From Kineosporia corallincola (lineage in GTDB: Bacteria > Actinomycetota > Actinomycetes > Actinomycetales > Kineosporiaceae): a stretch of 64,000 nucleotides of DNA. The position numbers and the translations under genes were made by a program. Shown one piece after another: positions 11,212 through 64,000 of this stretch (its first letter is position 1; every line of letters begins with the position of its first letter). The notes beneath the pieces were generated by a model, which worked only from the letters and a program-made list of their open reading frames with translations, was not told the DNA's origin and did no database searches. The stretch spans positions 1 through 64,000 of the forward strand of contig NZ_JAHBAY010000016.1 in the NCBI RefSeq assembly GCF_018499875.1. The letters run 5' to 3'.

Positions 11212-11244
11212 GAACGGCGCCGGGTCGCAGACCCGGCGCCGTTC
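11212..11244 (-). terminator. Perfect 15-bp hairpin after the PRC-barrel gene
   Basis: GAACGGCGCCGGGTC (11212-11226) and its exact complement (11230-11244) around a 3-base loop, starting 13 bp after the PRC-barrel stop. A very stable stem without a T-run, as is usual for intrinsic terminators in such GC-rich genomes. Confidence 0.75.
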
Positions 11245-11257
11245 GTGGATCTGCTGG

Positions 11258-11623: not shown

Positions 11624-11662
11624 CGTGAGTGCCTCCTTGCGTGTGGCGGTTTGGGCTACGGA

Positions 11663-11694
11663 GGAGCTTTCGCCGAAACTCAGGCGAAATCTCC
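11663..11694 (-). promoter_or_regulatory. Hairpin upstream of the PRC-barrel gene
   Basis: GGAGCTTTCGCC and GGCGAAATCTCC form a 12-bp stem with one mismatch and an 8-base loop, about 40 bp before the start codon. It could be a 5'-leader structure or the operator of an unknown regulator. Confidence 0.35.
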
Positions 11695-11735
11695 GTGTGA
11701 CATCCAGTTGATCGCGGTCTGCGAGTTCCGCAACG

Positions 11736-11936
11736 TCAGATGTCAGCCCTCGCGCCCGGCCGGTACGGCCCGTTCCCGTTCTTCCCGTTGGTGGAGGTGG
11801 GGCACGCGAACCGGGAGCAGTGCTCGACGTAGGGCGGCTTCTCGAGTATCGCGGTGGACCGCCGCACGAACGTCACCTGGTCGGTGGCCGGCGGAAACGT
11901 TGGCCCCGCGAGGCAATTGATCGGCCGTGCCGTCAT
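11736..11936 (-). CDS. Possible small Cys-containing protein, 66 aa
   Basis: A short frame from ATG 11936 to TGA 11738-11736. About nine in ten of its codons end in G or C, as in the real genes around it, which is the main reason to list it. Three Cys residues (NCLAG, EHCSRFACP) and a Gly/Asn-rich tail could bind a metal. No clear ribosome site and no family. The rest of the roughly 480-bp gap between 11624 and 12106 holds two hairpins (11663-11694 and 12006-12025) and nothing else I can support. Confidence 0.35.
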   Translation of the reverse strand: MTARPINCLAGPTFPPATDQVTFVRRSTAILEKPPYVEHCSRFACPTSTNGKNGNGPYRPGARADI

Positions 11937-12106
11937 CGGTGCGGGTGCGCCCGCCGCGCCCCGTCCGGGTTCGTGCTCTCGCTGGGTGCCGGCGACCTTC
12001 GGACACCGTCCCGGTGTGGGGACGGAAGGTGCCACGTCCACTACGGTTGCCAGGTCAGGCGCCGGACCCCGGCCGGCCCGTCGTCGTCCGTTGATTGTGA
12101 GCTCTG

Positions 12107-12583
12107 GTGGAATCCGTCACACCGCAGGACATCTCGTACCTGGAGCGGGCCGTCGCCCTGGCCTGGGAGGCCCGTGAGCGGGGAGACCACCCGTTCGGCG
12201 CGCTGCTGGTGACGCCGGGCGAGGAGGTGGTCGAGGCCCGCAACAGCGTGGTCACCGGCTCCGACCCGACCGGTCACGCGGAGAGCAACCTGGTGCGGCT
12301 GGCCGGCCGGCTCGACCGGGGAGCGCTGAGCCGCGGCACGCTGTACACCAGCACCGAGCCCTGCGCGATGTGCGCCGGGGCGATCTACTGGTCGGGCATC
12401 GGCCGGGTGGTGTTCGCGCTGTCCGAGGCCGAACTCGGCACCCTGGTCGAGGAGGAGGAGGGCGTGCCCCCGCTCGACCTGCCCTGCCGTGAGGTGTTCG
12501 CCCGGGGCGGCCGGTCGATCGTGGTGGACGGGCCGGTCGGCCTGCCGGCCGCCGTCGAGGTGCATCAGGGGTTCTGGAACTAG
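12107..12583 (+). CDS. Nucleoside/guanine deaminase (cytidine deaminase superfamily)
   Basis: 158 residues of the zinc-dependent CMP/dCMP deaminase fold, close in pattern to guanine deaminases and TadA-like enzymes. Zinc ligands and catalytic Glu are in GHAESN (His and Glu) and PCAMCAGAIYWSG (two Cys). It opens with a helix ERAVALAWEARERGDHPFGALLV, as in guanine deaminase, and ends LPAAVEVHQGFWN. It probably hydrolyses an amino group from guanine or a related base; the exact base cannot be read from the motif. GTG start at 12107. It converges with the Lrp gene, 3 bp apart. With hpxO and xdh nearby, guanine salvage to xanthine would fit, but they are not in one operon. Confidence 0.85.
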   Translation: MESVTPQDISYLERAVALAWEARERGDHPFGALLVTPGEEVVEARNSVVTGSDPTGHAESNLVRLAGRLDRGALSRGTLYTSTEPCAMCAGAIYWSGIGRVVFALSEAELGTLVEEEEGVPPLDLPCREVFARGGRSIVVDGPVGLPAAVEVHQGFWN

Positions 12584-12586
12584 CCG

Positions 12587-13042
12587 TCAGAGAAGCTGTT
12601 CCATGCGCCGGGGGATCACCTGGCGCAGCACGAACGAGGAGTCGGTGCGGCGGATCCCGCGGCAGCGCATGATCCGCTGGGTGACCCGGTAGACGTCGTC
12701 CGGGTCGGCGGCGACCAGCTCGATCAGCAGGTCGCTGCCGCCCGACACCGCCGAGCACTCAATGATCTCCGGCACCCGCTCCAGGTCTTCCACCAGGCCG
12801 TCGAAGCGGTTCTGGTCCACCTCGGCCCGCACGAACACCCGCAGCGGCTTGCCCACCACCGCGCCGTCGAGGCGGCTGGTGGCCGGGGCCAGCAAACCGC
12901 TCTCGGTCAGCCGCCGCAGATGGGCGAGCACCGTGCCCCGGGCCAGTTTGAGGTCCTGAGCGATGTACTGCGTGGTGGCCCGGGGGTGGCGGTCCAGCAC
13001 CCGGAGGATGTCGCGGTCGATGCCGTCGAGGCTCGCGGGCAC
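12587..13042 (-). CDS. Lrp/AsnC family transcriptional regulator
   Basis: 151 residues: N-terminal winged HTH (LDGIDRDILRVLDRHPRATTQYIAQDLKLARGTVLAHLRRLTESGLL), a short hinge, then the RAM ligand-binding domain (VFVRAEVDQNRFDGLVEDLERVPEIIECSAVSGGSDLLIELVAADPDDVYRV). Typical AsnC length. It probably senses an amino acid or small amine and controls the divergent MFS gene and itself; the shared upstream region contains a 13-bp inverted pair (13061-13174). Confidence 0.92.
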   Translation of the reverse strand: MPASLDGIDRDILRVLDRHPRATTQYIAQDLKLARGTVLAHLRRLTESGLLAPATSRLDGAVVGKPLRVFVRAEVDQNRFDGLVEDLERVPEIIECSAVSGGSDLLIELVAADPDDVYRVTQRIMRCRGIRRTDSSFVLRQVIPRRMEQLL

Positions 13043-13060
13043 GAAGATCTCCCTGGTTGA

Positions 13061-13174
13061 TCGTTCTGACCACTGGCGCGGCCGGGATCGGCCGTCGGCT
13101 GACCATTATGGCCAGCCCTCCCGGTGACGGTTGATGCGGACGGTGCCGATTGCCCATCGTTGTGGTCAGAACGA
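13061..13174. promoter_or_regulatory. Lrp-type operator pair in the divergent region
   Basis: TCGTTCTGACCAC at 13061-13073 and its exact reverse complement at 13162-13174 lie about 100 bp apart. Between them CTGACCATTATGGCCAG (13099-13115) carries the same half-site again as a partial palindrome. Each outer copy sits about 20 bp upstream of one of the divergent genes. Lrp/AsnC octamers wrap DNA over several such sites, so this is the likely target of the adjacent regulator. Confidence 0.65.
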
Positions 13175-13193
13175 CGAGCAACCGGAGGATTCA

Positions 13194-14459
13194 GTGCGTG
13201 AGGGTGACGTTCGGGCGGGCCGTGCCGTCGTCTGGCTGTTCTGCGCCGTCACCGCCGGGGTGAACGTGCCCAATGCCCTGGTGCCGCAGTACGCCTCGCG
13301 TTACGACCTGCCGCCGGACGGTCAGGCACTGCTGCTGTCGATCTACATGGCGACGCTCGTGGGCACCCTCCTGCTGCTGGCCCGCCGTCCGCGGCCGGGT
13401 GGGGCGCGGCGGCTGCTGCTCGCGGCCGGGGTGGTGTCGATCCTGGCGGACACCCTCATCGGGCTGGGTGCGCTGGCGTTCGGTTTCGTGCTGGCCGGGC
13501 GGGTGCTGGCGGGGCTGGCGATGGCCCTCGGCACCAGCGCCGCCGCCGGGCTGGCCCTGGCCCACCTCGGCGAGCGCGGGCGCACGGCGATCGGGACGGG
13601 GACCGTTCTGGGTTCTCTGGCGGGCAATCTCGGGGCCGGGGCGGTGGCGGCCGCGGGCGGCGCGGTGCTGGTGACGGTGCCGTTCGTGCACGCGGTGCTG
13701 ACCGGGGTGGTGCTGGCGGGCGCGGCGGTGCTGGTGCCGGGCGGCGATGTGCTGCGCGGCACGGCCCGGCGTGGTGCGGTGCCGGGTGAGTGGAGCGGGA
13801 CCTCCGCCGGGGTGCGTGAGATCCCGCCTGCCGTCGTTCTTCCGGTGTACTCGCCGCGGCAGCGGGTGGCCGGTTACATCGTGGGGGCCGCGTCGTGGCT
13901 GGCGGCCGGGCTGGTGCTGGCGCTGGTGCCCGCCGCCGTGCGGCAGGCCCGGCCGGACAGCTCACCGGTGGAGTACATGCTGCCCTGCGCCGCCCTCCTG
14001 GTGACCGCGTGGCTGGCGCAGCGGGCGCTGGCGCCGCGTCTGCACCGGGTGCGGGCATGGGCGGTGTCGGCCGGGATCGTGGCCGGCACCACGGCCGTGG
14101 CCCTGAGCCTGACCGGGGGTTCGCTGCCCCTGGTCACCGCGGCCTGTGCGCTGCTGGGCCTGGCCCAGGGGCCGGCCTACACGCTCGGCATGATCACCGT
14201 GACCAACCGGCTCGGCCCGGCCGAGCAGGCCACGGTGACCGCCCGGTATGCGGCCTGGGCCTATTCCACCTGTGCCGCAGGGGTTCTGGTGACCGGGGTG
14301 CTGGCCGCGCGGATCGGGCTGCCGGCCGGGCTGTGCCTGGTCGCGGTCTCGGCGGCGGTGGCCGGGGTGGTGGCCACCGGGCTGGCCGGGCGCGCCCGGT
14401 CGGCGGAGGCGCGGGCGCTGGACGAGCTGGCCGTCACGGCCCTCAGGCCTGCGGGGTGA
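13194..14459 (+). CDS. MFS transporter
   Basis: 421 residues, about twelve membrane spans, best matching the sugar/drug-exporter branch of the major facilitator superfamily. Start GTG 13194 is preferred over an upstream frame extension because GGAGG lies 5 bp before it. The first span begins AVVWLFCAVTAGVNVPNALVPQYASRYDL. The loop GLALAHLGERGRTAIGTGTVLGSLAGNLGAG is typical. The middle loop (residues about 200-230) is Arg-rich. Regulated presumably by the divergent Lrp protein, so an amino-acid or amine exporter is a reasonable guess. Its 3' end overlaps the convergent oxidoreductase gene by 17 bp. Confidence 0.88.
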   Translation: MREGDVRAGRAVVWLFCAVTAGVNVPNALVPQYASRYDLPPDGQALLLSIYMATLVGTLLLLARRPRPGGARRLLLAAGVVSILADTLIGLGALAFGFVLAGRVLAGLAMALGTSAAAGLALAHLGERGRTAIGTGTVLGSLAGNLGAGAVAAAGGAVLVTVPFVHAVLTGVVLAGAAVLVPGGDVLRGTARRGAVPGEWSGTSAGVREIPPAVVLPVYSPRQRVAGYIVGAASWLAAGLVLALVPAAVRQARPDSSPVEYMLPCAALLVTAWLAQRALAPRLHRVRAWAVSAGIVAGTTAVALSLTGGSLPLVTAACALLGLAQGPAYTLGMITVTNRLGPAEQATVTARYAAWAYSTCAAGVLVTGVLAARIGLPAGLCLVAVSAAVAGVVATGLAGRARSAEARALDELAVTALRPAG

Positions 14460-15393
14460 TGACGATGCGCCGGTCGCTGTCGCGTGCCCGGCCCCAGGCC
14501 TGCTCGACGCCGGCGAGCGGCACGGTGGTGACGTCGACGGTGATCCGGCCCTCGGCCACGGCCGCGGCGATCTGCGTGAGCTCGGCCAGGATGTCGCGGG
14601 TGGGCACGGAGCCCTGCCCGCTGCCGACCACGGCCAGGCGGGCGGCACGCAGCGCGGCGGAGGGAATCGCCGCGGTGGGCCCGGCCATCGACCCGATCTG
14701 CACCCAGGTCAGCGGCTCGCCCCGGTCGGCCCGGTCGGTGACCAGGGTGGTCATGACGGCGGTGGCGGGTTCACCCCACAGGTAGTCGAGCACCACGTCC
14801 ACCCCGGCCGCGACCCGGCCCAGCCGGGAGGTGCCCTCGCCGAGCGCCACGGTGTCGGTGGCGCCGAGAGCGGTCAGCGCGCCGAGCTTTTCGGGGTCCC
14901 GGCCGACGGCGACGATCTGGCCGGCGCCGAACAGCCGGGCCACCTGCACGGCCGTCCGCCCGGCGTTGCCGGTGGCGCCGAGCACGAGCACCTTCTGCCC
15001 GGCGGTGAACTCGATCCGGCGGCGCAGCGCGACCCACGACGACATGGCCGGGTTCATCACGGCGGCCACGGCGACCGGGTCGGTGCCGTCGGGCAGCACG
15101 ATGCTGCGGCGGGCGTCGATCACGGTCTGCTCGGCCATCGCGCCGAGCGGGGTGTCCGGCAGCACGAAGTAGCGCAGCCGGCCCTCCCGGTCGCGGCCGA
15201 CGCCGTCGATGCCGGGCACCAGCGGCAGTTCGTCGGTGCTGGTGTAGTGCGAACCGCCGGCCTGCGACAGCACCCGCGGGTGCAGCCCGGTGGCGATCAC
15301 GTCGACCACCAGCTCGCCGTCGGCGGGATCGGGCAGGGGGAAGTCCTGGTAACGGGGAGCGGCGTCGAACGACGAGACCACGGCTGCCTTCAT
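14443..15393 (-). CDS. Quinone oxidoreductase-like zinc-free alcohol dehydrogenase (MDR) family
   Basis: 316 residues of the medium-chain dehydrogenase/reductase superfamily, quinone-oxidoreductase branch. A GroES-like N-domain (VVDVIATGLHPRVLSQAGGSHYTSTDELPLVPGIDGVG) is followed by a Rossmann domain with VLVLGATGNAGRTAVQVARLFGAGQIVAVGRDPEKL for NADPH. The structural-zinc Cys cluster of true alcohol dehydrogenases is missing. Start ATG 15393 is chosen for its GGAGG; an upstream in-frame start lies inside the operators. Divergent from a MarR regulator, with three palindromes between, so it is probably induced by an electrophile or phenolic that MarR senses. Confidence 0.9.
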   Translation of the reverse strand: MKAAVVSSFDAAPRYQDFPLPDPADGELVVDVIATGLHPRVLSQAGGSHYTSTDELPLVPGIDGVGRDREGRLRYFVLPDTPLGAMAEQTVIDARRSIVLPDGTDPVAVAAVMNPAMSSWVALRRRIEFTAGQKVLVLGATGNAGRTAVQVARLFGAGQIVAVGRDPEKLGALTALGATDTVALGEGTSRLGRVAAGVDVVLDYLWGEPATAVMTTLVTDRADRGEPLTWVQIGSMAGPTAAIPSAALRAARLAVVGSGQGSVPTRDILAELTQIAAAVAEGRITVDVTTVPLAGVEQAWGRARDSDRRIVITPQA

Positions 15394-15409
15394 GGCGACC
15401 TCCGATGGG

Positions 15410-15477
15410 TTGGTTGGGAACACCAACCAAAGTAGGTGGCATTGCCAACCAACGTCAAGTGGTTGGCAATGCCAACC
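15410..15477. promoter_or_regulatory. Three palindromic MarR-type operators
   Basis: TTGGTTGG-N5-CCAACCAA at 15410-15430, AGGTGGCATTGCCAACC at 15434-15450, and the perfect GGTTGGCAATGCCAACC at 15461-15477. All three share the half-site TTGGCA/TTGGTT and fill the 102-bp gap between the two divergent genes. MarR dimers bind palindromes of this size, so these are likely sites for the adjacent MarR protein, covering both promoters. Confidence 0.8.
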
Positions 15478-15495
15478 ATGAACTAGGATCGGCGC

Positions 15496-15939
15496 ATGTC
15501 ACCCGAACCGGTGGTGGAGCCGCTCGTGGACGTGCTCGTGCAGACCACCTTCCGCATCACCACCGCGCTGATCCGGGTCGGCGCCGAGCACGACCTGTCG
15601 CTCACCCAGCTGCGCGTGCTCGGCATCCTGCGCGACCACCGCGTACGGGTGACCGAGCTGGCGGCCCACCTCGGCCTGGACAAGTCCACGATGTCCGGCC
15701 TCATCGACCGCGCCGAGAAGCGCGGCCTGGTGCGGCGCGAGCGCAACGCCGAGGACCGCCGCGCCGTCGACGTGATGATCGCCCCGGCCGGCCTGGCACT
15801 GGCCGAGACCGCCTATCGCGAGGTGACGCAGGCCGTCTCGGCCGAGACCGGCCGCCTCGACCCGGCCCAGGCCGACGAGCTGGCCGGCCTGCTGCGGATC
15901 ATGCTCTCCGCCCCCCAGGCCGTGGTTCAGCGTCCCTGA
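15496..15939 (+). CDS. MarR family transcriptional regulator
   Basis: 147 residues with the MarR winged helix: RVLGILRDHRVRVTELAAHLGLDKSTMSGLIDRAEKRGLVRRERNAEDRRAVDVMIAPAG, including the DRR wing tip. Flanking helices form the dimer interface. Typical MarR length. Divergent from the oxidoreductase and autoregulated by the palindromes just upstream, in all likelihood. A shared hairpin (16004-16040) ends this gene and the convergent hpxO. Confidence 0.93.
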   Translation: MSPEPVVEPLVDVLVQTTFRITTALIRVGAEHDLSLTQLRVLGILRDHRVRVTELAAHLGLDKSTMSGLIDRAEKRGLVRRERNAEDRRAVDVMIAPAGLALAETAYREVTQAVSAETGRLDPAQADELAGLLRIMLSAPQAVVQRP

Positions 15940-16003
15940 ACCGTCCGCGGCGGCGTCCTCTCCCCGAGACGCCGCGTGGGGGAGCGGACGGCGCAAAAAT
16001 GAT

Positions 16004-16040
16004 GGACGACGGCGAGCCCGTGACGCGCTCGCCGTCGTCC
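16004..16040. terminator. Bidirectional terminator between marR and hpxO
   Basis: GGACGACGGCGAGC (16004-16017) pairs perfectly with GCTCGCCGTCGTCC (16027-16040) around a 9-base loop. An AAAAA run at 15995-15999 on the left serves as the T-tract for the leftward transcript. The same GGACGACG stem start recurs at two other gene ends in the window. Confidence 0.85.
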
Positions 16041-16058
16041 GTCAATTCGGCTGCCGGG

Positions 16059-17216
16059 CTACCCCAGTGGATTGCCCACCATGTTGCCCACGATGCCCCG
16101 GATCACCCCGGTGCCGTCTTCCCGCCGCAGCTCCTCGTACCAGGCTTGGGTGATCTCCGGGTCCTTGGCGTGGGTCACGTCGGCGCGCTTGCGGGCCCAC
16201 ATCACCAGGTCGCCGGCCCGCTGGGTGCGGGCCGCCTGGTAGCGGCGCAGGCTGTCTTCCACGCCGAGGGTGGTGGTGGCCAGCACCCGCTCCAGCACGA
16301 TCGTGTCTTCCAGGGCGGAGCAGGCGCCCTGCCCGATGTCGGGCGTGGTGTTGTGGGCGGAGTCGCCGAGCAGCGCCACCCGCCCGCGCACCCAGGTGTG
16401 GAACGGGTCGATGTCGAACACCTCGACTCGGTTGGTGCTGGCCGGGTCGATCCGCTCGATCAGCCGCTGCACGCCGGGCGCCCAGCCGCTGAAGTGCTTC
16501 GACAGCACCGCGCGGGCGTCCGCGCGGTCGTAGGGCAGACCGGCCGGCTCGACCACGTCGAAGAAGAAGTAGAACCGGTCGCCCGCCACGGGCATCACCG
16601 AGACCCGCTGCCCGTCGGCCACATACGTCGTCCACTGGTCGGCCGGCCCGACCTCCGGGTCGATCTCGACCAGGCCGTTGTAGTTCACGTATCCGGCGTA
16701 GCGGCGTTCCAGCTCGGCGCCCACCACGTAGGAGCGGATGCGCGAGCGCGCCCCGTCGGCGCCGATCAGCATGTCGCCGGTGGCCGTCTCACCGTTGGCG
16801 AAGGTCGCCGTGACCGTGTCGCCGTGCTGCTCCACACCCTCCAGCCGCATGCCGAAGCGGATGCGGTCCAGCCCGAACGCCTCCATCAGCGCGGCCTGGA
16901 GCTCGGCGCGCGAGACCGGGTAGGGGCGCTGCCCCATCTCCTCGGTGACCGGCGCCAGGCTGAACCGGCACATCGTGTCGCCGGTACGGCCGTCGCGGTA
17001 CGACATGTTGTCCATGCGCCCGCCCAGCCGCGCGGTCACCTCGCCCAGCCCCAGGTGGTTGAGCGCCTTCACCCCGTTGGGCCACAGCGACAGCGCGGCC
17101 CCCACCGGCCGGTTCTCCGTCACCTGCTCGTAGATCTCGACCTGGTGACCGAGGCGCGTGAGCGCGGTCCCGGCACTGGTGCCGCCGATTCCCGCGCCGA
17201 TGATGATGATTCGCAT
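16059..17216 (-). CDS. hpxO: FAD-dependent urate hydroxylase
   Basis: 385 residues, matching the Klebsiella HpxO type from end to end. It has the FAD-binding GAGIGGTSAGTAL at the N-terminus, then PVGAALSLWPNGVKALNHLG, the RYAGYVNYNGLVEID segment typical of urate hydroxylases, FYFFFDVVEPAGLP, and the second FAD motif ALLGDSAHNTTPDIGQGAC. It converts urate to 5-hydroxyisourate with NAD(P)H and oxygen, replacing uricase. Cytoplasmic. It is divergent from xdhABC, whose product makes urate, which fixes the assignment. The two promoters share a 17-bp element (17281-17297 and 17397-17413), so they are probably co-regulated. Hydroxyisourate hydrolase and decarboxylase genes are not in the window. Confidence 0.93.
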   Translation of the reverse strand: MRIIIIGAGIGGTSAGTALTRLGHQVEIYEQVTENRPVGAALSLWPNGVKALNHLGLGEVTARLGGRMDNMSYRDGRTGDTMCRFSLAPVTEEMGQRPYPVSRAELQAALMEAFGLDRIRFGMRLEGVEQHGDTVTATFANGETATGDMLIGADGARSRIRSYVVGAELERRYAGYVNYNGLVEIDPEVGPADQWTTYVADGQRVSVMPVAGDRFYFFFDVVEPAGLPYDRADARAVLSKHFSGWAPGVQRLIERIDPASTNRVEVFDIDPFHTWVRGRVALLGDSAHNTTPDIGQGACSALEDTIVLERVLATTTLGVEDSLRRYQAARTQRAGDLVMWARKRADVTHAKDPEITQAWYEELRREDGTGVIRGIVGNMVGNPLG

Positions 17217-17280
17217 GGAGACCCTTCTGAGCTGCCCGAATCCGGTGCGATTTTTATGGCACCGGTCGTGCGGGCCACTG

Positions 17281-17413
17281 TAGAGCCATAGGTCCCGCGG
17301 GCCTGCGGCCGGCGGAAATCATTGCCGCAGCGGAATTAACGAGCCGGAAACAAAAACGTGCCGATGGTCCGGAAGGTGCAACCTCGCTTGTCAGGCCGGG
17401 ACCTATGGCTCTA
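17281..17413. promoter_or_regulatory. Shared 17-bp element in the hpxO/xdh divergent promoters
   Basis: CGGGACCTATGGCTCTA occurs twice, exactly: on the minus strand at 17297-17281, 64 bp before hpxO, and on the plus strand at 17397-17413, 124 bp before xdhA. Each copy runs into a -10-like hexamer: TACAGT for hpxO and TACGGT for xdhA. For xdhA a -35 TTGTCA lies 18 bp upstream (17388-17393). A common regulator of purine catabolism probably binds here. The rest of the 321-bp gap shows nothing else I can support. Confidence 0.7.
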
Positions 17414-17537
17414 CGGTACCCGCCATGGACCTCCGCTCCCGCACTCACAGCACCGCATGGGTGCGGGGCCGCGTCGCGCACGGGAATCGGCGGCATCTGC
17501 CCAGCCACCCGTCCACGCCGACCCCGGAAGCCGGAGC

Positions 17538-18916
17538 ATGCCTACCACCATCGTCAATGGAAAATCCCTTCAGCTAGGCGATTTTCCCGCCAACGGCTCC
17601 GCCCTCGACGCGCTGCGCGCGCAGGGCCTGCTCGGGGCCAAGGAGGGGTGCGCCGAGGGGGAGTGCGGCGCCTGCGCCGTGCTGGTGGCCCGCCCGGGCG
17701 TGGCCAGTGCCACCGAGTGGACCGCCGTCAACGCCTGCCTGATGCCCGCCGGTGCCCTGGCGGGCATGGAGGTGCGCACCTCCGAAGGTCTCGCCGGGCC
17801 GGACGGCCTGCACCCGGTGCAGCGTGAGCTGGCCGAGCGGGGCGGCTCGCAGTGCGGCTACTGCACGCCCGGGTTCGTGTGCAGCATGGCCGCCGAGTAC
17901 TACCGGCCCGACCGCGGCGAGCACTTCGACCTGCACGCGCTCAGCGGAAACCTTTGCCGCTGCACCGGATACCGGCCGATCCGCGACGCCGCCACGGCCC
18001 TCGGCCGGCCCGCGCCCGGCGACCCGCTGGCCGAGCGCTGCTCGCACGCGCCGCCCACCCCCGAACCCGGTGGCGGTGCCGGCTTCCTGCGCCCGGCCAC
18101 GCTGGCCGAGGCGCTCGACGTGCTCGCGCGCGACCCCGCGGCCACCGTCGTGTCCGGCGCCACCGACCTCGGTGTCGACATCAACCTCAAGGGTTTACGG
18201 CCGGAACTGATCGTCTCGATCGGCCATCTCGACGAACTGCGCACACTGGAGATCACGGACGAATCCGTCCGGTTCGGTGCGGCACTCACCCTGACCGAGC
18301 TGGAACGCCGCCTGGACGGCCGGGTCCCGCTGCTGGCCGAGCTGTTCCCGCAGTTCGCCTCCCGGCTGATCCGCAACTCGGCCACCGCGGGCGGCAGCCT
18401 CGGCACCGCCTCGCCGATCGGCGACCTGGCCCCGGTGCTGCTGGCCCTGGACGCCGGCCTGGTGCTCACCTCGGCCGCCGGCGGCGACCGGGAGGTGCCG
18501 CTGGCGGACTACTTCACCGGCTACCGCGCCACCGTGGCCCGGCCCGGCGAGATCATCCGCGACATCCGGGTGCCGCTGCCCCTGCCGGGGCACACCGCCT
18601 TCCAGAAGATCGCCAAGCGCCGCTACGACGACATCTCCAGCGTCGCCGTGGCGCTCGCCCTCGACCTGGACGACGACGGTGTGGTCACCCGCGCCCGCAT
18701 CGGGCTCGGCGGCGTGGCCGCCACCCCGGTGCGCGCCCTGGCCACCGAGGCCGCGCTGACCGGCCGCCCGTTCACCGAGGACACGATCGAGGCCGCCGCC
18801 GCGGTGCTGGGCGGTGAGGGCACGCCGCTGGACGACCACCGGGCCAGCGCCGCCTTCCGCTCGGCCATGCTCGGCGAGTCGCTGCGCCGGTTCGGCGCCG
18901 GAATGCTGGAGGCACG

Positions 18917-49551: not shown

Positions 49552-49774
49552 GATCTCTTGATCCCGTACTGGCAGACTGCCGCGCAGCGATGCGGATCGT
49601 GCCCGTTCCGTCACGCAGGCAGTGCGTGGCATTCCCCGGCCGGGGGGCCGTGGGGGTGGGGACACGCAGCGGGCGGGGCCGACGGTGGTCCAGCGGCGCC
49701 GGACCCGAGGGGGCCGGTGGCGGCGGCCGGTCGCTTCCGGCGGTGCAGGCTAGACGAAATGGCGGTTGCAGGGC

Positions 49775-50467
49775 ATGACGACGGCGGACACCGTGCGGGC
49801 AGGGGCGTCCGGTGCGGCCCAGGACGGCGACCGGGCCACGGCCACGGGTGCTCCGGGTGGGGCCGGGTCACCGGTCCGCACCCGCAGGCGCCCGGTGCTG
49901 GTGGCGATGTCCATCCTCTTCGTGGTGGTCGGCGCCCTGCTGATGGCCTGGCTGGTCACGATGCTCGGCGACACCCAGCCGGTGGTCGGGGTGCGCCAGA
50001 ACGTCGCCCGCGGCGAGGTGATCGAGGAGAGCGACCTGGTCGTGCTCGACCTGGCCGGCGCACCCGGGCTGGACACCGTTCCAGGCTCACGACTTTCGAC
50101 GCTGGTGGGCAAGCGGGCCGCGCAGGACCTGAGCGCCGGCGGCGTGGTCACCCCCGGCCAGGTCACCGACGAGGTGCTGCCCGCCGACGGCGAGTCCGTG
50201 GTCGGCGTCAGCCTGACCAGGGGGCAGCTGCCCGCCACCCCGCTGCTGGCGGGCGACACCGTGCGGGTGGTGTTCACCCCCGGTCAGCAGGACGACGTGC
50301 CCCGCGCCCAGCCGCAGACCGTCACCGCCACCGTCGTCTCACCGGGCGTCGCCGACGACCAGGGCCAGGTGGTGGTGGACGTCAGCGTGCCGCAGATCTC
50401 CGCGGCCCGCCTGGCCGCCGCGGTCGCCACCGGCCGGGTCGCCGTCGTGCTGGACAGCAACAACTGA
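49775..50467 (+). CDS. cpaB: CpaB/RcpC-like pilus assembly protein (SAF domain)
   Basis: 230 residues. One membrane span (about 43-65, VLVAMSILFVVVGALLMAWLVTML) then the SAF domain (VVGVRQNVARGEVIEESDLVVLDLAGAPGLDTVPGSRLSTLVGKRAAQDLSAGGVVTPGQV) outside, typical of Tad locus RcpC/CpaB proteins. In these loci it precedes the CpaE-like and TadA genes, as here. ATG 49775, CAGGG upstream; the next ATG overlaps its stop (TGATG). First gene of the Flp/Tad operon. Confidence 0.88.
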   Translation: MTTADTVRAGASGAAQDGDRATATGAPGGAGSPVRTRRRPVLVAMSILFVVVGALLMAWLVTMLGDTQPVVGVRQNVARGEVIEESDLVVLDLAGAPGLDTVPGSRLSTLVGKRAAQDLSAGGVVTPGQVTDEVLPADGESVVGVSLTRGQLPATPLLAGDTVRVVFTPGQQDDVPRAQPQTVTATVVSPGVADDQGQVVVDVSVPQISAARLAAAVATGRVAVVLDSNN

Positions 50468-51270
50468 TGGCCGTCATCACGCTCGCCTCCGGATCGGGCT
50501 CCCCGGGTGTCACCACCACCGCGCTGGCCCTGGCCGTCGCCTGGCCCCGGCCGGCCCTGCTGGTCGAGGCCGACCCCAGCGGCAGCTCCGCGATCAGCGC
50601 CGGCTGGTTCCGTGGCAGCCCGCCCCACGACGGCGGCCTGCTCAGCCTCGTCATGGCGCACCGGCAGGGCCGGCTCGCCGAGGCCGTGCCCGAGGTCGCC
50701 GTCCCGGTCGAGGGCAGCGGCGCGCAGATCCTCGCCGGCACCCGCTCCCCGGCCCAGGCCGCGTCGCTGGCGCCGGTCTGGGAGGCACTCGCCGCCGAGC
50801 TGCGGACGATGGACGCCCGGGGCATGGACGTTCTGGTGGACGCCGGCCGGCTCGGGCTGACCGGCACGCCGGAGCCGCTGCTGACCGCCGCCGACGCGGT
50901 GCTGCTGGTCAGCCGCACCTCGCTGCCCGCGGTCGCCGGGGTGCGTGGCTGGGCCTCCCGGCTCCAGCGTGACTTCGCCGCCCGCGGCACCGAACACCAG
51001 ATCGGGCTGCTGACCGTCGGCGACAAACGTCCCTACACCGCCGCCGAAACCGCGCGCACCCTGCGGATTCCCGCCGTCGCCAGCATCACCTGGGACCCGG
51101 ACGCCGCCGAGGTGTACTCCGACGGCAGGCCGTCCGGCCGCACGTTCGGCCGCGGCGGTTACGCCCGCAGCGTGCGCGCGGCGGTCTCGGCCGTGCAGGA
51201 GTTCGTCGCCGCCAACCGGTCCCGCCTCGACGCCGGGAACCTGCTCGACGTGGGGGAGACCACCCGGTGA
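50467..51270 (+). CDS. CpaE-like MinD/ParA-type protein with altered P-loop
   Basis: 267 residues, MinD/ParA fold: MAVITLASGSGSPGVTTTALALAVAWPRPALLVEADPSGSSAISAGW at the start, then VLVDAGRLG and VLLVSRTSLPAVAGVRGW. The P-loop reads GSPGVTTTA where ParA has KGGxGKT/S: both lysines of the deviant Walker A motif are missing. It probably binds nucleotide weakly or not at all and acts as a scaffold placing the pilus machine. This form is regular in actinobacterial Tad loci. Overlaps the neighbours on both sides. Confidence 0.85.
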   Translation: MAVITLASGSGSPGVTTTALALAVAWPRPALLVEADPSGSSAISAGWFRGSPPHDGGLLSLVMAHRQGRLAEAVPEVAVPVEGSGAQILAGTRSPAQAASLAPVWEALAAELRTMDARGMDVLVDAGRLGLTGTPEPLLTAADAVLLVSRTSLPAVAGVRGWASRLQRDFAARGTEHQIGLLTVGDKRPYTAAETARTLRIPAVASITWDPDAAEVYSDGRPSGRTFGRGGYARSVRAAVSAVQEFVAANRSRLDAGNLLDVGETTR

Positions 51271-52856
51271 GCGACCGCAGTCACCAGCCCGGGCAGGGCC
51301 TCGACGACCTGCCGCTCTTCCGTGACCTCGGCCCGGCCACCGCCGGCACCGGGCTGCGCGTGGTCGGCACCGATCCCGCGGCCGTCCAGGGTCCCGAAAC
51401 CCCCTGGGCCGGAATCGGTCTGCCCCGTCCCGGGGTGGGCCGGCCGCTGAACCGGCGGGACTCCCGGCGCGCCGCGCAGGCCACCGGCCCGCTGCGTGCC
51501 TCGGTGCCGAACCACGACGCCGGCCTGGACTGGGCCCTGGTGGCCGCCTTCCGCGACCGGGCCTCGCGCCGGCTCACCGAGGCCCTCACCGCCTCCCCCA
51601 CGCTGACACCCGGCCAGCAGCGGGAACTCGCCCGCAAGATCGTGTTCGACCTGCTCGACGACGCCGCGCGCGACGACATCGCGACCGGCTCCGCGGCCTG
51701 GCGTCCCGGCCTCCAGCAGCGGATGGCCGAGACGGTCTTCGACGCGCTGTTCGGCCTCGGGCGGTTGCAGCCGCTGGTGGACGACCCGGACGTCGAGAAC
51801 ATCATGATCACCGGCTGCGACCGGGTGATGCTGGAGTACAACGACGGTCAGCTGCGTCCCGGGCCGCCGGTGGCCGAGAGCGACGACGAGCTGATCGAGT
51901 TCCTGGCGTTCCTGGCCTCCCGCTCCGAGGTCAACGCCCGCAGCTTCAGCGAGTCCCAGCCGCGTCTGCACCTGCGGCTCGACGGCGGTGCCCGGCTGGC
52001 CGCCACCGCCTGGGTCACGCCCCGCCCGGTGGTGGTGATCCGGCGGCACCGGCTGGTCGACATCTCGCTCGACGACCTGGTGGACCGGCAGATGCTCTCC
52101 CCGCTGGCCGCCGGCTTCCTGGCCGCCGCGGTGCGAGCCCGCAAGAGCATCGTGGTGTCCGGGCCGCAGGGCGCCGGCAAGACCACGATGGTGCGGGCCC
52201 TGTGCGCCGAGATCCCGCCGTGGGAGCGGATCGGCACGTTCGAGACCGAGTACGAGCTGTTCCTGCACGAGCTGCCCGGCCGTGAGGGCACGGTCATCGC
52301 CTACGAGGCCCGGCCCGGCACCGGCGAGCGCGCGGCCGGCGGACGGCAGGCCGGCGAGATCACGCTCGACGAGCTGCTGTACGACTCGTTCCGGTTCAAC
52401 CTGCAACGCCAGATCGTGGGTGAGGTCCGCGGCAAGGAGATCATCGCCATGATCAAGGCGATGCAGTCCGGCGCCGGGTCGATCTCCACCACCCACGCCG
52501 CCACCGCGGTCGGCGCGATCCGCAAACTGGTCACCTGCGCGATGGAGGCCGGCCCGCACATCACCGAGTCCTACGCCCAGCGCGCCGTGGCCGAGGACAT
52601 CGACGTGATCGTCCAGGTGCACCTGCACACCGACCCGGGCAGCGGAGACGGCCGCGACCAGCCGGTGCGCACGCGCTGGGTGAGCGAGATCGTCGCGGTG
52701 CACCCGGGTGAGCAGGGACCGGCCCGCACCACGGTCTTCGGCACGGAGAGCTACCGCGAGGCCCGGGCCCTGGCCTCGGTGCTGCCCGACGAGTATCGCG
52801 AACTGGCCGCCTACGGCTTCGATCTCGACGCGTTCGCGCGGGAGGCCGGCTCATGA
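51267..52856 (+). CDS. tadA: Tad secretion ATPase (TadA/CpaF)
   Basis: 529 residues, VirB11/GspE superfamily. After an N-terminal stretch of about 90 residues comes the alpha/beta N-domain (LTPGQQRELARKIVFDLLDD, LFGLGRLQPLVDDPDVENIMITGCDRV), then Walker A SGPQGAGKTTMVRAL near residue 298, and the Asp/His boxes (EITLDELLYDSFRFNLQRQIVGEVRGKEIIAMIKAMQSGAGSISTTHAATAVGAIRKLVT). It is the motor for pilus extension at the cytoplasmic face. GTG 51267 overlaps the previous stop and its own stop overlaps tadB by ATGA. Confidence 0.95.
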   Translation: MSDRSHQPGQGLDDLPLFRDLGPATAGTGLRVVGTDPAAVQGPETPWAGIGLPRPGVGRPLNRRDSRRAAQATGPLRASVPNHDAGLDWALVAAFRDRASRRLTEALTASPTLTPGQQRELARKIVFDLLDDAARDDIATGSAAWRPGLQQRMAETVFDALFGLGRLQPLVDDPDVENIMITGCDRVMLEYNDGQLRPGPPVAESDDELIEFLAFLASRSEVNARSFSESQPRLHLRLDGGARLAATAWVTPRPVVVIRRHRLVDISLDDLVDRQMLSPLAAGFLAAAVRARKSIVVSGPQGAGKTTMVRALCAEIPPWERIGTFETEYELFLHELPGREGTVIAYEARPGTGERAAGGRQAGEITLDELLYDSFRFNLQRQIVGEVRGKEIIAMIKAMQSGAGSISTTHAATAVGAIRKLVTCAMEAGPHITESYAQRAVAEDIDVIVQVHLHTDPGSGDGRDQPVRTRWVSEIVAVHPGEQGPARTTVFGTESYREARALASVLPDEYRELAAYGFDLDAFAREAGS

Positions 52857-53737
52857 CGTCCACCACGCTGATCGCGCTCCTGGCCGGGCTGCTCCTGCTC
52901 GGCGGCCTCACCGGCGTCGTCGCCGGGCTGCGCCGCACGCCGGTGCCGCCGGCCGGCCCGGCCACCGCCGCCCGGCCCTCCCGTCTGCATGGCCTGACCC
53001 CGCGCACGCGACAGCTGCTGCTGGCCGGGCTGGTGGCCGGGGTGGTGGCGGCGCTGGTGTCCGGCTGGCTGATCGCGCTGATCGTGCTGCCGGTGGCGTT
53101 CGCCGGCCTGCCCTGGCTGCTGTCGGCCCCCGAGACCTCGCTGCGGATCGAGCGTCTGGAGGCGATGGAGGAGTGGACGCGGTCCCTGGCCGGAGTGCTG
53201 ACCGTCGGCCTGAGCCTGGAGAACGCCCTGATCACCGCCCTGCGCTCGACCCCGCCGCCGATCCGGGCGGAGGTCGCCACGCTGGTGGCCCGGCTGAACG
53301 CGCGCTGGCCCACCGACCGCGCGCTGCGGGCCTTCGCCGACGACATGGACGACCCGACCGCCGACCTGATCGCGATGAACCTGGTGCTCGCCGCCCAGCG
53401 GCGCGGCACCGGCCTGGCCGCCGTGCTGGAGGGGCTGTCCGAGTCGGTGGCCGCCGACGTGCGCTCGCGCCGGGCGGTGGAGGCCGACCGGGCCAAACCC
53501 CGGGCCACGGCCCGGGCGATCACCGTGATCACGATCGGGGTGCTGGTGCTGCTCACCTTCAACGGCAGTTACATCGCTCCCTACGGAACGGCCGCCGGGC
53601 AGCTGGTTCTCGTGCTGCTGCTCAGCCTGTTCGTGGCCACCCTGGTCTGGCTCCGCAGCATGGCCAGGGGTGAGCCGCTGCCCCGCATCATCGGCACCGG
53701 CCTGGACCGGCCCGGCGGTTCGGGGGCGGGCCGATGA
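52853..53737 (+). CDS. tadB: Tad inner-membrane protein TadB
   Basis: 294 residues. Two N-terminal spans (about 5-22 and 50-85), the GspF-like cytoplasmic core (RIERLEAMEEWTRSLAGVLTVGLSLENALITALRSTPPPIRAEVATLVARL...ADLIAMNLVLAAQRRGTGLAAVLEGLSESVAADVRSRRAVEADRAKPRATAR) and two C-terminal spans. It forms the pilus platform with TadC. ATGA overlaps at both ends. Confidence 0.92.
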   Translation: MTSTTLIALLAGLLLLGGLTGVVAGLRRTPVPPAGPATAARPSRLHGLTPRTRQLLLAGLVAGVVAALVSGWLIALIVLPVAFAGLPWLLSAPETSLRIERLEAMEEWTRSLAGVLTVGLSLENALITALRSTPPPIRAEVATLVARLNARWPTDRALRAFADDMDDPTADLIAMNLVLAAQRRGTGLAAVLEGLSESVAADVRSRRAVEADRAKPRATARAITVITIGVLVLLTFNGSYIAPYGTAAGQLVLVLLLSLFVATLVWLRSMARGEPLPRIIGTGLDRPGGSGAGR

Positions 53738-54636
53738 CCGTCGTGCAGATCGCGCTCGCCGCGGGCGGTCTCATCGGCCTGGGCGTCTCGCTGGTGGTGT
53801 GGCGGCTGGCCCCGGCCACGCCCGACCTGGCCTCGGCGCTGGAGAATCTCGACCCGGAGCGGTCGCTGCGGCGCAGCGGCTACACCGGGCCGGTGCTGCC
53901 CGCGGGCGCCCAGGACCGGGCCGGGCTGTTCGTCATGCGCACCCCGATCGCCGCGGTGTGGAACGTGCCGGTGCGCGAACTGGCACTGCTCCAGATCCCG
54001 GTGCACCGGTACTGGGGCGAGAAGGCGCTGTACTTCCTGATCGGCCTGATCTTCCCGCCGGTGGTCACGCTGCTCGCCACGCTGCTGGGGATCGGCCTGC
54101 CGTTCGTCGTCCCCCTGCTCGCCTCGCTCGTGCTGGCGGTGGGGCTGAGCCTGCTGCCCGACTACAACGCGCGCTCCGACGCGGCCGCCCGCCGCCACGA
54201 GTTCGCCCGGGCGCTGGGCGCCTATGTCGACCTGGTGGCCCTGGAACGGGCCGGCGGCTCGGGTCCGCGGCAGGCCATGGAGAAGGCCGCGAGCGTCGGG
54301 GACTCCTGGGTGTTCCGGCGGATCGCGGAGGAACTGGCCCGTTCCGGCTGGAGCGGCCTGCCGCCGTGGGACGCCCTCAGCGCGCTGGGCGACGAACTCG
54401 GCCTGGCCGAGCTCGGGGAGGTCGCGGACATCATGCGGCTGTCCGGCGAGGAGGGGACCGCGGTGTACACCACGCTGCGGGCCCGTTCGGCGTCCATGCG
54501 CAATGCCCTGATGAACACCGAGCTGGCCAAGGCCAACGCGGTGGGCGAGCGGATGAGCATCCCGGTCTCGATGCTCGCCCTGGTGTTCCTGCTCATCCTC
54601 GTGGCACCGGCGGTGCTGCGGGTGCTCGGTGTCTGA
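53734..54636 (+). CDS. tadC: Tad inner-membrane protein TadC
   Basis: 300 residues, partner of TadB with the same GspF-like core (ARRHEFARALGAYVDLVALERAGGSGPRQAMEKAASVGDSWVFRRIAEELARSGWSGLPPWDALSALGDELGLAELGEVADIMRLSGEEGTAVYTTLRARSASMRNALM) and spans near residues 5-25, 105-145 and 275-295. It shares ATGA with tadB. Confidence 0.92.
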   Translation: MTVVQIALAAGGLIGLGVSLVVWRLAPATPDLASALENLDPERSLRRSGYTGPVLPAGAQDRAGLFVMRTPIAAVWNVPVRELALLQIPVHRYWGEKALYFLIGLIFPPVVTLLATLLGIGLPFVVPLLASLVLAVGLSLLPDYNARSDAAARRHEFARALGAYVDLVALERAGGSGPRQAMEKAASVGDSWVFRRIAEELARSGWSGLPPWDALSALGDELGLAELGEVADIMRLSGEEGTAVYTTLRARSASMRNALMNTELAKANAVGERMSIPVSMLALVFLLILVAPAVLRVLGV

Positions 54637-54669
54637 CCTGTGAAACCAACCATGGAGGGAACTCTCATC

Positions 54670-54873
54670 ATGCTCCGCCCCGTCGCCGTCGTCCACCTGT
54701 TCGTCATCGCCCTGGTCGCCCGTCTGGTCGCCGCCACCGAACCGCGCCGGGACGAGCGCGGCTCGGTCACCCTGGAGCAGGTCGTCATCGCCCTGGGGCT
54801 GTTCCTGCTCGCCGTCGCCGTGATCGCCGGCATCAAGGCGGCGGTGGACAACCGGATCGGGCAGATCAACTGA
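54670..54873 (+). CDS. Flp-type pilin
   Basis: 67 residues. A 30-residue leader ends in ERG, cleaved before SVTLEQ, with Glu at +5 as in type IVb pilins, followed by the hydrophobic helix VVIALGLFLLAVAVIAGIKAAVD. The mature pilin would be about 35 residues. ATG 54670 is chosen because GGAGGG lies 9 bp upstream, though a longer leader from ATG 54652 is possible. Its stop overlaps the proposed CTG start of the next gene. The prepilin peptidase (TadV/CpaA) that must cut it is not in this cluster. Confidence 0.85.
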   Translation: MLRPVAVVHLFVIALVARLVAATEPRRDERGSVTLEQVVIALGLFLLAVAVIAGIKAAVDNRIGQIN

Positions 54874-55268
54874 CGCCCGCCGGAACGGCCCGCGCGGCCC
54901 GCGACCGGGGGTCCACCTCGCTGGAACTGGTGGTCATCTTCCCGGCGGTACTCCTGGTCATCTTCGCGGTCGTGCAGGGTGCGCTGTACTACTTCGCCAG
55001 CTCCAGCGCCCTGGCCGCGGCCCAGGAGGGCGCCCGCACCGCCGCGGGCGAGAACTCCAGCGCGGCAGCCGGTCAGCAGGCGGCGGGCGCTTTCTCGGCG
55101 CGGGTCGCGGGCAACATGCTCCAGACGCCGGGGGTGGTGGCCTCGCGCACCGCCACGACCGCCACCGTCACCGTCAGCGGGCACTCGCTCAGCGTGCTGC
55201 CCGGGTTCGCCGGGATCGGGATCTCCCAGACCGCCTCGGTTCCGGTCGAGCGGCTCACCGGCGGATAG
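54870..55268 (+). CDS. TadE-like pseudopilin, probable CTG start
   Basis: 132 residues. The frame has the TadE hallmark DRGSTSLELVVIFPAVLLVIFAVVQGALYYFASSSALAAAQEGARTAA, with prepilin-like cleavage after Gly and Glu at +5. No ATG, GTG or TTG lies between the previous stop and this motif. The only suitable codon is CTG at 54870, which overlaps the pilin stop as CTGA, the same geometry as the ATGA/GTGA couplings elsewhere in the operon. Either a CTG start, or the frame depends on reinitiation at some other codon. Confidence 0.82.
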   Translation: MTPAGTARAARDRGSTSLELVVIFPAVLLVIFAVVQGALYYFASSSALAAAQEGARTAAGENSSAAAGQQAAGAFSARVAGNMLQTPGVVASRTATTATVTVSGHSLSVLPGFAGIGISQTASVPVERLTGG

Positions 55269-55299
55269 CCGTGCCCGAGAACAGATCACAGGGGGAACG

Positions 55300-55725
55300 A
55301 TGAGCCGGGACGCCCCGGACCGGGGATCCATGACGCTGGAGTTCGTGGTCGTCGTGCCCGGGCTGCTGCTGGTGCTGTCACTGGTGATCTTCGGGGGGCG
55401 GCTCGCCCTGGCCCACCAGGCGGTGGAGGCCGCCGCGGCCGAGGCCGCCCGCACCGCGTCCATCGCCCGGCAGGCGTCCACCGCCGCCGGCGACGCCCGG
55501 GCGGCCGCACAGAACACCCTCGACGAGGAGAGGCTGCGGTGCAGCAGCACCACCACGAGCGTCGACACCAGCGGGTTCGCCGCCCCGGTGGGCACCGCGG
55601 CGACCGTCTCGGCCACCGTCACCTGCGTGGTCAACCTCTCCGACCTGGCCCTGCCCGGGCTGCCCGGCAGCCGCACCGTGACGGCCACCGGCGACAGCCC
55701 TCTCGACACCTACCGGGAGCGCTGA
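55300..55725 (+). CDS. TadE/TadF-like pseudopilin
   Basis: 141 residues. MSRDAPDRGSMTLEFVVVVPGLLLVLSLVIFGGRLALAHQAVEAAAAEAARTASIARQ: the G-SMTLE site and the following helix mark a TadE-type minor pilin, with about 80 residues of exported domain holding two Cys. ATG 55300 has GGGGGA upstream. The stop overlaps the next ATG (TGATG). Confidence 0.88.
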   Translation: MSRDAPDRGSMTLEFVVVVPGLLLVLSLVIFGGRLALAHQAVEAAAAEAARTASIARQASTAAGDARAAAQNTLDEERLRCSSTTTSVDTSGFAAPVGTAATVSATVTCVVNLSDLALPGLPGSRTVTATGDSPLDTYRER

Positions 55726-56153
55726 TGATCCGGGGTTCCGGGCGCGACGACCGCGGCTCCGTCAGTCTTTTCGCGGTCGTGGTGGTGGTCGCCCTGCTCG
55801 TCGCCACCGGTCTGGTGGTGGACGGCGGGGGCATGATCGCCGCCCAGCAGCGCGCCCAGTCGACCGCCCGTGAGGCGGCCCGCCAGGGTGGCCAGCAGCT
55901 CCAGGCGTCTCTGGCGGTGCGCGGTATCGCGGTGCGCATCGACTCCTCGGCCGCCGAGCAGGCCGCGCGCACCTGGCTGGCCGCCGCGGACGTCGACGGC
56001 AGCGCCTCGGTGCAGGGCGGCGACACCGTGGTGGTCGACACCAGCACCACCTACAGCCCGATCTTCCTCAACCTCATCGGCGTGGGCACGCGCACCGTCA
56101 CCGGTCACGCCGAGTCCCGTGTCGCCCGGACCGTCGACGGAGCCGCCCAGTGA
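55725..56153 (+). CDS. TadG-like/Flp pilus assembly membrane protein
   Basis: 142 residues. DDRGSVSLFAVVVVVALLVATGLVVDGGGMIAAQQRAQSTAREAARQGGQQL is the TadG/Rv3660-like N-terminus, where the RGSVSLFAVV site may also be processed by prepilin peptidase (although Phe stands at +5 instead of Glu). The exported part has TVVVDTSTTYSPIFLNLIGVGTRTVTGHAESR, as in its homologues. Overlaps at both ends. Confidence 0.88.
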   Translation: MIRGSGRDDRGSVSLFAVVVVVALLVATGLVVDGGGMIAAQQRAQSTAREAARQGGQQLQASLAVRGIAVRIDSSAAEQAARTWLAAADVDGSASVQGGDTVVVDTSTTYSPIFLNLIGVGTRTVTGHAESRVARTVDGAAQ

Positions 56154-62350: not shown

Positions 62351-62473
62351 TCAGGACGCCGGAGGCGAACAGATCAGCAGGCTGAGGGTGCTCGATTCGC
62401 CGAGGCTGAGCACGTCCGTCTCTTCGGACCGGTTGGTGACGGCGATCATCTGGAGGTCGAGCAGCTGGTTCAT
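62351..62473 (-). CDS. Class III lanthipeptide precursor (RamS/SapB-like)
   Basis: 40 residues, directly after lanKC. The leader opens MNQLLDLQMIAV, holding the LLDLQ motif that class III synthetases bind, followed by an acidic stretch (RSEETDVLSLGE). The core carries Ser28-x2-Ser31-x3-Cys35 (STLSLLIC), the labionin pattern Ser-x2-Ser-x2-5-Cys with the same spacing as SapB's RamS. Further Ser and Thr (S27, T29, S36, S40) could be dehydrated. ATG 62473 is the likely start, as GGGA lies 6 bp upstream; ATG 62488 gives five more residues and overlaps the lanKC stop as ATGA. The product would have one ring. No peptidase or ABC exporter is in the window. Confidence 0.88.
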   Translation of the reverse strand: MNQLLDLQMIAVTNRSEETDVLSLGESSTLSLLICSPPAS

Positions 62474-62484
62474 CTCATATCCCT

Positions 62485-64000
62485 TCATCGTGTGAATTCT
62501 CTTTCGGCACTGCGGTTCGGTGTCAGATCGAACCTCCTGGGGGACGTCAGCAGTCCCGGTATCGGGAACGCGGGTGCGGGAAGACCGTGAACCGCCCCGG
62601 CGTACGCACGCAGGGCGGTGAGCAGGCCGGCCGAGCCACTGGCCCAGTCCACCGAGGCGCGCAGCATCTGCTCACCCGGCAGATGAATACCGGTGCCGTG
62701 GACGAGGGCGTACAGCCGTAGGTCGCGGGTGTGCCGGATCAGGTCGGAGCGGGTCCGCTCGTCGGCGAACGGCGAGTTCAGCACGGCCGCGAGAAACAGC
62801 ACGTAACCGGCTCGGCCGTTGAAAAGCCCCGGCTGCACGGTGAAGCCGGCCCGGGTCAGGCGGATGACCTTGCGGACGGTGAGGTGCAGGTGTTCGTCGT
62901 CCACATGGTGCAGCAGGCGCATCGCCACCAGGGCCACCCCGATCGACCCGGCACCCAGATAGGGCATCGTGCGCCGGGATCCGCCGATCTGGAGCGAGCC
63001 GTCGGGCCGCTCGACGCATGCCGTCACGTCAGCCGCCAGCGCCTGCTGGGCCAGGTCGAGATCGGCCGGATCGCCGGATGTCTCGTAACTGCACAGCCAG
63101 AAGAGGGCCGATCCGGTGGGCCCGTGCAGGAGGCCGGAGGGCCTGGACCGGGGGCTAGGCGGTGTGCCGGGCGCCTGCGTCGCACTCCGGGTCTCCCGGT
63201 GGGCGCGGCCACGTAACACCGCCCGGATCGCCTCGATCGCGTCGGTGATCTGGTGGTCACGGACCCGATCGAGCCGGTGCAGAAGGCCCACGCCGATTCC
63301 CGCCAGCCCGCCGTACAGATCGCCGGGAAGCCGGTCGAACGGTAGCGTGCAGATCTCCTGGTACAGCCGGTCGGCCACCGAGGCGCGGCCGAAATCATCC
63401 ATGGCACAGGCAATTCCGGTGATGCCGTCAAGCAGACCGGGTCGCGGGGAGAGCCCGTGCAGCGCCGTCTCCACCCGGTTCAGCACCGCGTCGCGGTCGC
63501 CGTGCCGGCTGGCCAGCAGCACGCCGCAGGCACCGTGCGCGATCGACAGCGCATCGTGCGTGAACTGACGGATGTCGCCGGGGAACATCCGGTGCGGGCG
63601 GGACAGATCCAGGCTTTCCCAGATGCCCTGACTGATCGCCGATTCCAGACGGCGCACACCGTCGGCCGAGTCGATCGGCCACTCGTGCACCAGATCACGC
63701 ACCTGGACGCACTCGTCACCGACGGCATGGTCACCGTCGAGCTCACGGAGCACTGCCGCGGACCAGGACGGATCGAGGCCGAACCGGAGCGCGGCCTCTT
63801 CGACCAGTCGCCCCGCGGCCCGCCGGTCCAGGGGGAGCAGCATGGTCAACGGTATGAACAGTGCCAGTTTCAGGCAGGCCAGCGAGTACCGGTCGGCGGG
63901 GATGCCGGTGCGACCGTCGGGTGCGGTGTATCCCGGGGCTCCGCCCACGGCCGGGCGGGAACTGCCGACAGGACAGGACATCTCCAGGTCGACGAACCGG
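62485..64000 (-). CDS. lanKC: Class III lanthipeptide synthetase, C-terminal part
   Basis: 505 codons visible; the gene runs off the right edge, so its lyase and most of its kinase are outside. At the edge stands RFVDLEMSC, the kinase metal-binding Asp segment (VxLIDFE), then GGAPGYTAPDGRTGIPADRYSLACLKLALFIPLTMLL, the activation-loop and last kinase helices of RamC/LanKC proteins. From about visible residue 140 comes the cyclase-like domain with its double-helix repeats (HGACGVLLASRHGD, DGITGIACAMDD, GDLYGGLAGIGVGLLHRL, LHGPTGSALFWLC, GRAGYVLFLAAVL, WASGSAGLLTALRAY). The zinc ligands of LanC (Cys and CHG) are missing, as expected in class III. Its stop is coupled to the precursor gene. Confidence 0.93.
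   Translation of the reverse strand, partial: RFVDLEMSCPVGSSRPAVGGAPGYTAPDGRTGIPADRYSLACLKLALFIPLTMLLPLDRRAAGRLVEEAALRFGLDPSWSAAVLRELDGDHAVGDECVQVRDLVHEWPIDSADGVRRLESAISQGIWESLDLSRPHRMFPGDIRQFTHDALSIAHGACGVLLASRHGDRDAVLNRVETALHGLSPRPGLLDGITGIACAMDDFGRASVADRLYQEICTLPFDRLPGDLYGGLAGIGVGLLHRLDRVRDHQITDAIEAIRAVLRGRAHRETRSATQAPGTPPSPRSRPSGLLHGPTGSALFWLCSYETSGDPADLDLAQQALAADVTACVERPDGSLQIGGSRRTMPYLGAGSIGVALVAMRLLHHVDDEHLHLTVRKVIRLTRAGFTVQPGLFNGRAGYVLFLAAVLNSPFADERTRSDLIRHTRDLRLYALVHGTGIHLPGEQMLRASVDWASGSAGLLTALRAYAGAVHGLPAPAFPIPGLLTSPRRFDLTPNRSAEREFTR

Follow-up and report, generated by a model that had tools for sequence, protein, structure and literature searches.

The window (the whole 64,000-nucleotide stretch of DNA that was analysed) is part of contig C16 (214,672 bases) in an assembly of 8.2 Mb, and at the right-hand end of the window the minus strand carries a lanthionine synthetase gene, lanKC, with a small gene, lanA, directly behind it. 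The features of the locus are:

62351..62473, minus strand: lanA, 40-aa class III lanthipeptide precursor, stop codon counted in
62474..62484, minus strand: gap of 11 nt between lanKC and lanA, with AAGGG, a ribosome-binding-like sequence
62485..64000, minus strand: 3' part of lanKC, a class III lanthionine synthetase gene that spans contig 62485-65133 in full
Window 49766-56153: Tad/Flp-pilus-type set, with successive matches to SAF, T2SSE, T2SSF (twice), TadE and Tad
Left of the pair: GyrI-like protein, NUDIX protein, a weak PKD match below cut-off and a LysM protein
Contig 65280-66854, right of the pair: TAP-like alpha/beta hydrolase
Further right: second alpha/beta hydrolase, PBP-family protein, AraC-type regulator, MmyB-type regulator and GDSL lipase
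About 6 kb beyond lanKC, other strand: BTAD/response-regulator gene
Right of the BTAD gene: putative hybrid histidine kinase, from a by-eye reading only

The product of lanA, MNQLLDLQMIAVTNRSEETDVLSLGESSTLSLLICSPPAS (40 aa), is read from a minus-strand frame with its ATG at 62473 and its stop codon at 62351-62353, where the original prediction had placed a 40-residue precursor with an LLDLQ leader and an S-x2-S-x3-C core. The leader begins with MNQLLDLQ, the core holds one S-x2-S-x3-C motif (S28, S31 and C35, the only cysteine, with no second ring motif found in the core), and five residues, SPPAS, follow the ring cysteine. The peptide thus combines an LxLQ leader with an SxxSx(2-5)C core, as class III precursors do. 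Starting instead from an ATG at 62488, which overlaps the lanKC stop, would lengthen the peptide by MKGYE (to 45 aa); the start at 62473 is preferred because both orthologous precursors from the genus begin at MNQ (with ATG in one and GTG in that of Kineosporia babensis) and because AAGGG stands shortly before the MNQ start of lanA itself.

The frame of lanKC runs past the window edge at 64000 and encodes 882 aa beginning with MDMRY. The original prediction would have failed had the synthetase frame continued as a non-kinase protein beyond the edge; it continues as a kinase and cyclase, with the Pfam domains RamC_N (lyase), Pkinase and LANC_like in that order. LanKC scored 866 bits against the class III model NF038151 (cut-off 575) and 407 bits against the class IV model (cut-off 650), so that by sequence comparison its predicted class, class III, is clear, and the placing of lanA right behind a LanKC held good. 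The motif HGDLHPGN was found in LanKC and both of its genus orthologues, and a sequence check for the Cys-His pair among the zinc ligands showed that it is absent from all three, as expected since class III cyclases are described as lacking the zinc ligands of other LanC-type cyclases (PMC10604976). Combined into a profile, the three LanKCs from the genus matched the solved LanKC chains 8sap, 8sam and 8sao near full length (E about 3e-106).

The same two-gene unit is present in 3 of the 6 genus genomes examined, namely our own (G000), G003 and G004 (K. babensis), with gaps between lanKC and lanA of 11, 10 and 11 nt respectively. LanKC showed 64 and 63% identity to the G003 and G004 orthologues respectively (search of 58 genomes), and identity among the precursors was 47–51%; lanKC is an open full-length frame without stops in all three. 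With LanKC as sole query no relative was confirmed in the genome contigs, and the three-row LanKC alignment returned nine loci there, one of them K. babensis. Relatives with this lanKC had been expected to keep the small frame, and each of the three genus genomes does; conversely, the precursor was found only in genus genomes with this lanKC (three of six). A model built from the three precursors recovered them at E values of 6e-20 (G000), 2e-21 (G003) and 2e-18 (G004), these being the rows from which it was built; its matches in the remaining genus genomes, three in number, all had E values above 1. The class III synthetase model was exceeded in four of the six (G000, G003, G004 and G001), G001 carrying two more distant synthetases with 36% identity to LanKC.

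The G003 precursor (MNQILDLQTLTPDEQPEDLSLLNLCGQPSTASLLLCG; locus L036) and the K. babensis precursor (MNQILDLQMLDAEERTEGLSILCDASVLCNASNLSLLAC; loci L037/L039) share the MNQ.LDLQ leader and the C-terminal ring motif with lanA. Across the three, MNQ, LDLQ and the ring motif S-x2-S-L-L-x-C are invariant and the flanking residues have changed. The SPPAS tail is found in our species only, the sibling precursors ending in CG or, in K. babensis, in Cys, and unlike lanA they carry additional cysteines upstream of the ring motif (one in G003, two in K. babensis). Of the predicted single ring with an SPPAS tail, therefore, the single motif stood, while the tail proved peculiar to one species. Codon differences in lanA at positions 1, 2 and 3 numbered 15, 9 and 14 against G003 and 14, 8 and 17 against K. 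babensis, with no clear third-position excess in either comparison, which speaks neither for nor against selection acting on the peptide.

Membership of lanA in the Pfam RamS family (PF19402, cut-off 24.3) is borderline, as its scores straddle the cut-off (25.5 bits for the 40-aa form, 24.9 for the 45-aa form and 23.7, just below, in the genome search); the three genus precursors scored 25.5, 27.4 and 24.3 bits. Against the NCBIfam SapB/AmfS model NF033212 lanA reached 23.3 bits (under the cut-off of 25) and against NF038159 12.3 bits (cut-off 30), and, in such matches as there were, none of the three genus precursors reached the NCBIfam cut-off for SapB/AmfS, lanthi_III_a or lanthi_III_b. Routine annotation may therefore miss these peptides; about 55% of class III precursors were unannotated according to Walker et al. 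(PMC7268733). For the wider placing of lanA with the class III precursors the support is good.

A short frame scoring below the NCBIfam cut-offs might have arisen by chance behind lanKC. The short-frame pattern L.LQ plus SxxSx2-5C has a single occurrence in the 64 kb window, against seven in a set of 150 first-order Markov sequences modelled on the window (about 0.05 per window), such that the bare motif would be expected in about one window in twenty. Chance is nonetheless unlikely given the position of lanA 11 nt behind LanKC, and a leave-one-out HMM built from the G003 and G004 precursors only, searched against 1106 six-frame segments of at least 20 aa, recovered the window lanA at E 1.9e-8 (next best E 1.2). 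Together with the conserved gap and the co-occurrence of lanA and lanKC, this rules out the chance-frame reading in the main, and we give it a negligible probability. Its conservation settles that lanA is a real gene, and 62351-62473 is confirmed as a class III lanthipeptide precursor gene.

SapB is a surface peptide of Streptomyces, and the ram/amf clusters include an ABC exporter pair and a LuxR or response regulator. The Streptomyces SapB/AmfS (RamS) systems have the same order of LanKC before precursor, the LLDLQ leader, S-x2-S-x3-C and the Pfam RamS match, but carry two motifs where lanA has one. The exporter and LuxR regulator that the original prediction looked for nearby did not materialise in a Pfam scan of genes from contig 49766 to about 72900, a scan that covered some 12.5 kb to the left and 8 kb to the right of the pair and not every small frame; contig 72900-76000 was read by eye only, and three frames at 72.7-75.2 kb gave no Pfam match. 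The surroundings also differ between the three loci: the GyrI-like neighbour occurs in one of the six genus genomes, our own, the G003 locus adjoins a GNAT acetyltransferase, and in K. babensis the neighbours are an amidohydrolase and a DtxR-type repressor. Among the genes looked at, the three loci had neither an exporter nor a protease nor a ram-type regulator in common. With different neighbours at each locus, the lanKC-lanA pair looks like a self-contained unit. In G003, an ABC-2 transporter pair lies on the opposite strand, some 4 kb upstream.

A leader peptidase was sought along two lines, neither of which pointed to one enzyme. The TAP-like hydrolase has matches in G003 and K. babensis that do not stand beside lanKC, and each genus genome has 3 to 15 such matches; Peptidase M1 has four matches in our own genome, which does not single out a protease.

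The rarity of a single ring was assessed across the class, where RamS matches with E no higher than 0.01 were present in 51 of 394 genomes (46 above the cut-off). Reading 45 loci from this search gave 56 precursor frames (two loci gave none), of which 47 had two or three ring motifs and nine, from G172, G313, G173, G092 and G280, had one motif and one Cys. The G172 precursors carry a tail past the ring; one example (MTFILDLQGLETPAAEESAENAYSASYLSLLLCFTGAVEADA; L085), from another family of the class, shares with lanA the LDLQ leader and one S-x2-S-x3-C followed by a tail. Among plasmid records, 81 of 72,556 matched LanKC, the match covering at least 80% of its length in 33 cases, and the top two among the best 10 of these 81 relatives were from Streptomyces sp. 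KN37 and Hoyosella subflava pAS9A-2 (about 42% identity), both with an LxLQ peptide bearing a C-terminal SxxSxxxC directly behind the synthetase. In KN37, lanKC and the precursor gene are followed by two ABC genes and, further on, by a response regulator on the other strand, in contrast to the Kineosporia pair, near which neither was recognised. The Hoyosella plasmid, typed as mobilizable, resembles our locus in that a 36-aa LanA-like frame (MTHILALQDQPTDTKLSHEHGETLLSGWSALSIVYC; L120:6671-6781), absent from the record's gene table, lies behind the annotated lanKC with a single C-terminal SxxSxxxC, and no ABC gene is listed over 10.5 kb of that table, which is incomplete. It differs in that the peptide has no Pfam family match (it matches NF038154 weakly) and a histidine kinase/response regulator pair lies upstream.

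These comparisons bear on whether the pair could be the degenerate remnant of a SapB-type cluster, having lost its second ring and exporter and with a peptide no longer made or used. The predominance of multi-ring precursors (47 of 56), the lack of an ABC gene among the scanned neighbours and the two ABC genes and response regulator of KN37, the top-ranked annotated relative among those listed, would all agree with such decay. However, the synthetase is full-length and stop-free in all three orthologues at about 62% identity, the ring motif is kept in every precursor despite the changes flanking it, and the gap is conserved, which makes a remnant improbable.

A single ring is less common yet not new, given the nine surveyed frames and the single-motif class III precursors already in print, which corrects the original prediction on this point. 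One source lists 179 predicted single-Cys lanthipeptides (PMC11251773), and single-motif class III precursors of Firmicutes (Pre_24; bacinapeptins and paenithopeptins) are described in which each core has a lone S-(X)2-S-(X)2-5-C motif, as here, although in a different phylum and with a methyltransferase and a transporter gene in two studied clusters (PMC8960859). The same survey of single-Cys peptides names lipolanthines as the only characterised single-Cys labionin products (PMC11251773), and the K. babensis precursor ends in Cys, both in keeping with a lipolanthine-like or otherwise further modified single-labionin product; with five residues past the Cys in our own precursor, and no Cys decarboxylase or acyl-chain synthase among the neighbours scanned with Pfam, such a product is very improbable.

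We consider it highly probable (roughly 0.93), judging from sequence, that lanKC-lanA constitutes a two-gene class III lanthipeptide unit whose product would be modified, trimmed and exported, with a likely role of the SapB/AmfS type. In the scheme that we propose, LanKC would bind the LLDLQ leader, its kinase would phosphorylate Ser and its lyase eliminate the phosphate to give Dha, as in the family, and its cyclase would add C35 to Dha31 and then close Dha31 onto Dha28. Class III chemistry is described in these terms, with Ser phosphorylation and elimination, Cys addition and a second Michael-type addition leading to labionin (PMC10604976). The product would be one labionin (S28-S31-C35) or one lanthionine only, between which the sequence does not discriminate, the SxxSxxxC motif having been reported to yield either of them, depending on the peptide (PMC7268733). 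Since none was recognised nearby, leader removal and export would presumably fall to an unclustered peptidase and an unclustered transporter; class III clusters of Actinobacteria are described as usually lacking a protease (PMC7268733).

By analogy with SapB/AmfS, the product most likely serves in surface activity or signalling, and this is the weakest step of the scheme. Durhapeptin is described as evidence that SapB-like peptides, though cryptic, are able to trigger aerial hyphae in related species, and that hydrophobic residues are important (PMC13380574); the hydrophobic LLI ring segment of lanA would fit this picture. A fuller version, wherein the stand-alone pair would yield a one-labionin peptide with unclustered export and processing, disulfides in the siblings by way of their extra Cys and a developmental or surface role outside Streptomyces, is doubtful as a whole.

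The main points of the original interpretation are thus supported, and the Kineosporia pair is an ordinary new case of the known class III lanthipeptides. It extends these, in compact one-ring form, to Kineosporia, for which a full-text search of the available literature found no paper together with lanthipeptides. Having only two genes, the unit lends itself to co-expression, and could serve to probe a minimal SapB-like peptide and its exit from the cell.

Several further loci were noted during the surveys. In G001 a short frame, MSLDQLHSLEIEKDDSAAFLEAMSTFSYFWC (L038:3786-3881, minus strand), lies behind a minus-strand synthetase and has one SxxSxxxC with a C-terminal Cys, making it another possible single-ring class III precursor. 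The same region (G001:C18:74001-94000, positions 3951-18908) holds a daptide cluster between two class III synthetase genes of 773 and 500 bits (cut-off 575, the second falling under it), in which an RRE protein, a methyltransferase, an aminotransferase and an HExxH protease exceed the NCBIfam cut-offs, the dehydrogenase scores 265 (cut-off 300), three daptide-like precursors lie at about 11200-11784 and an F420-type LLM oxidoreductase adjoins one synthetase; LanKC/LanJC pairs in daptide clusters have already been published (PMC10036551). At two Nocardia loci (L045 and L046, about 10600-11160), four and two consecutive short frames, for example VLKLQLQSDPELGDDAPMSSYSEHHC..., follow a LanKC-like gene; most of them contain a single Cys, preceded in several by HH, and similar Nocardia peptides are mentioned in PMC11251773.
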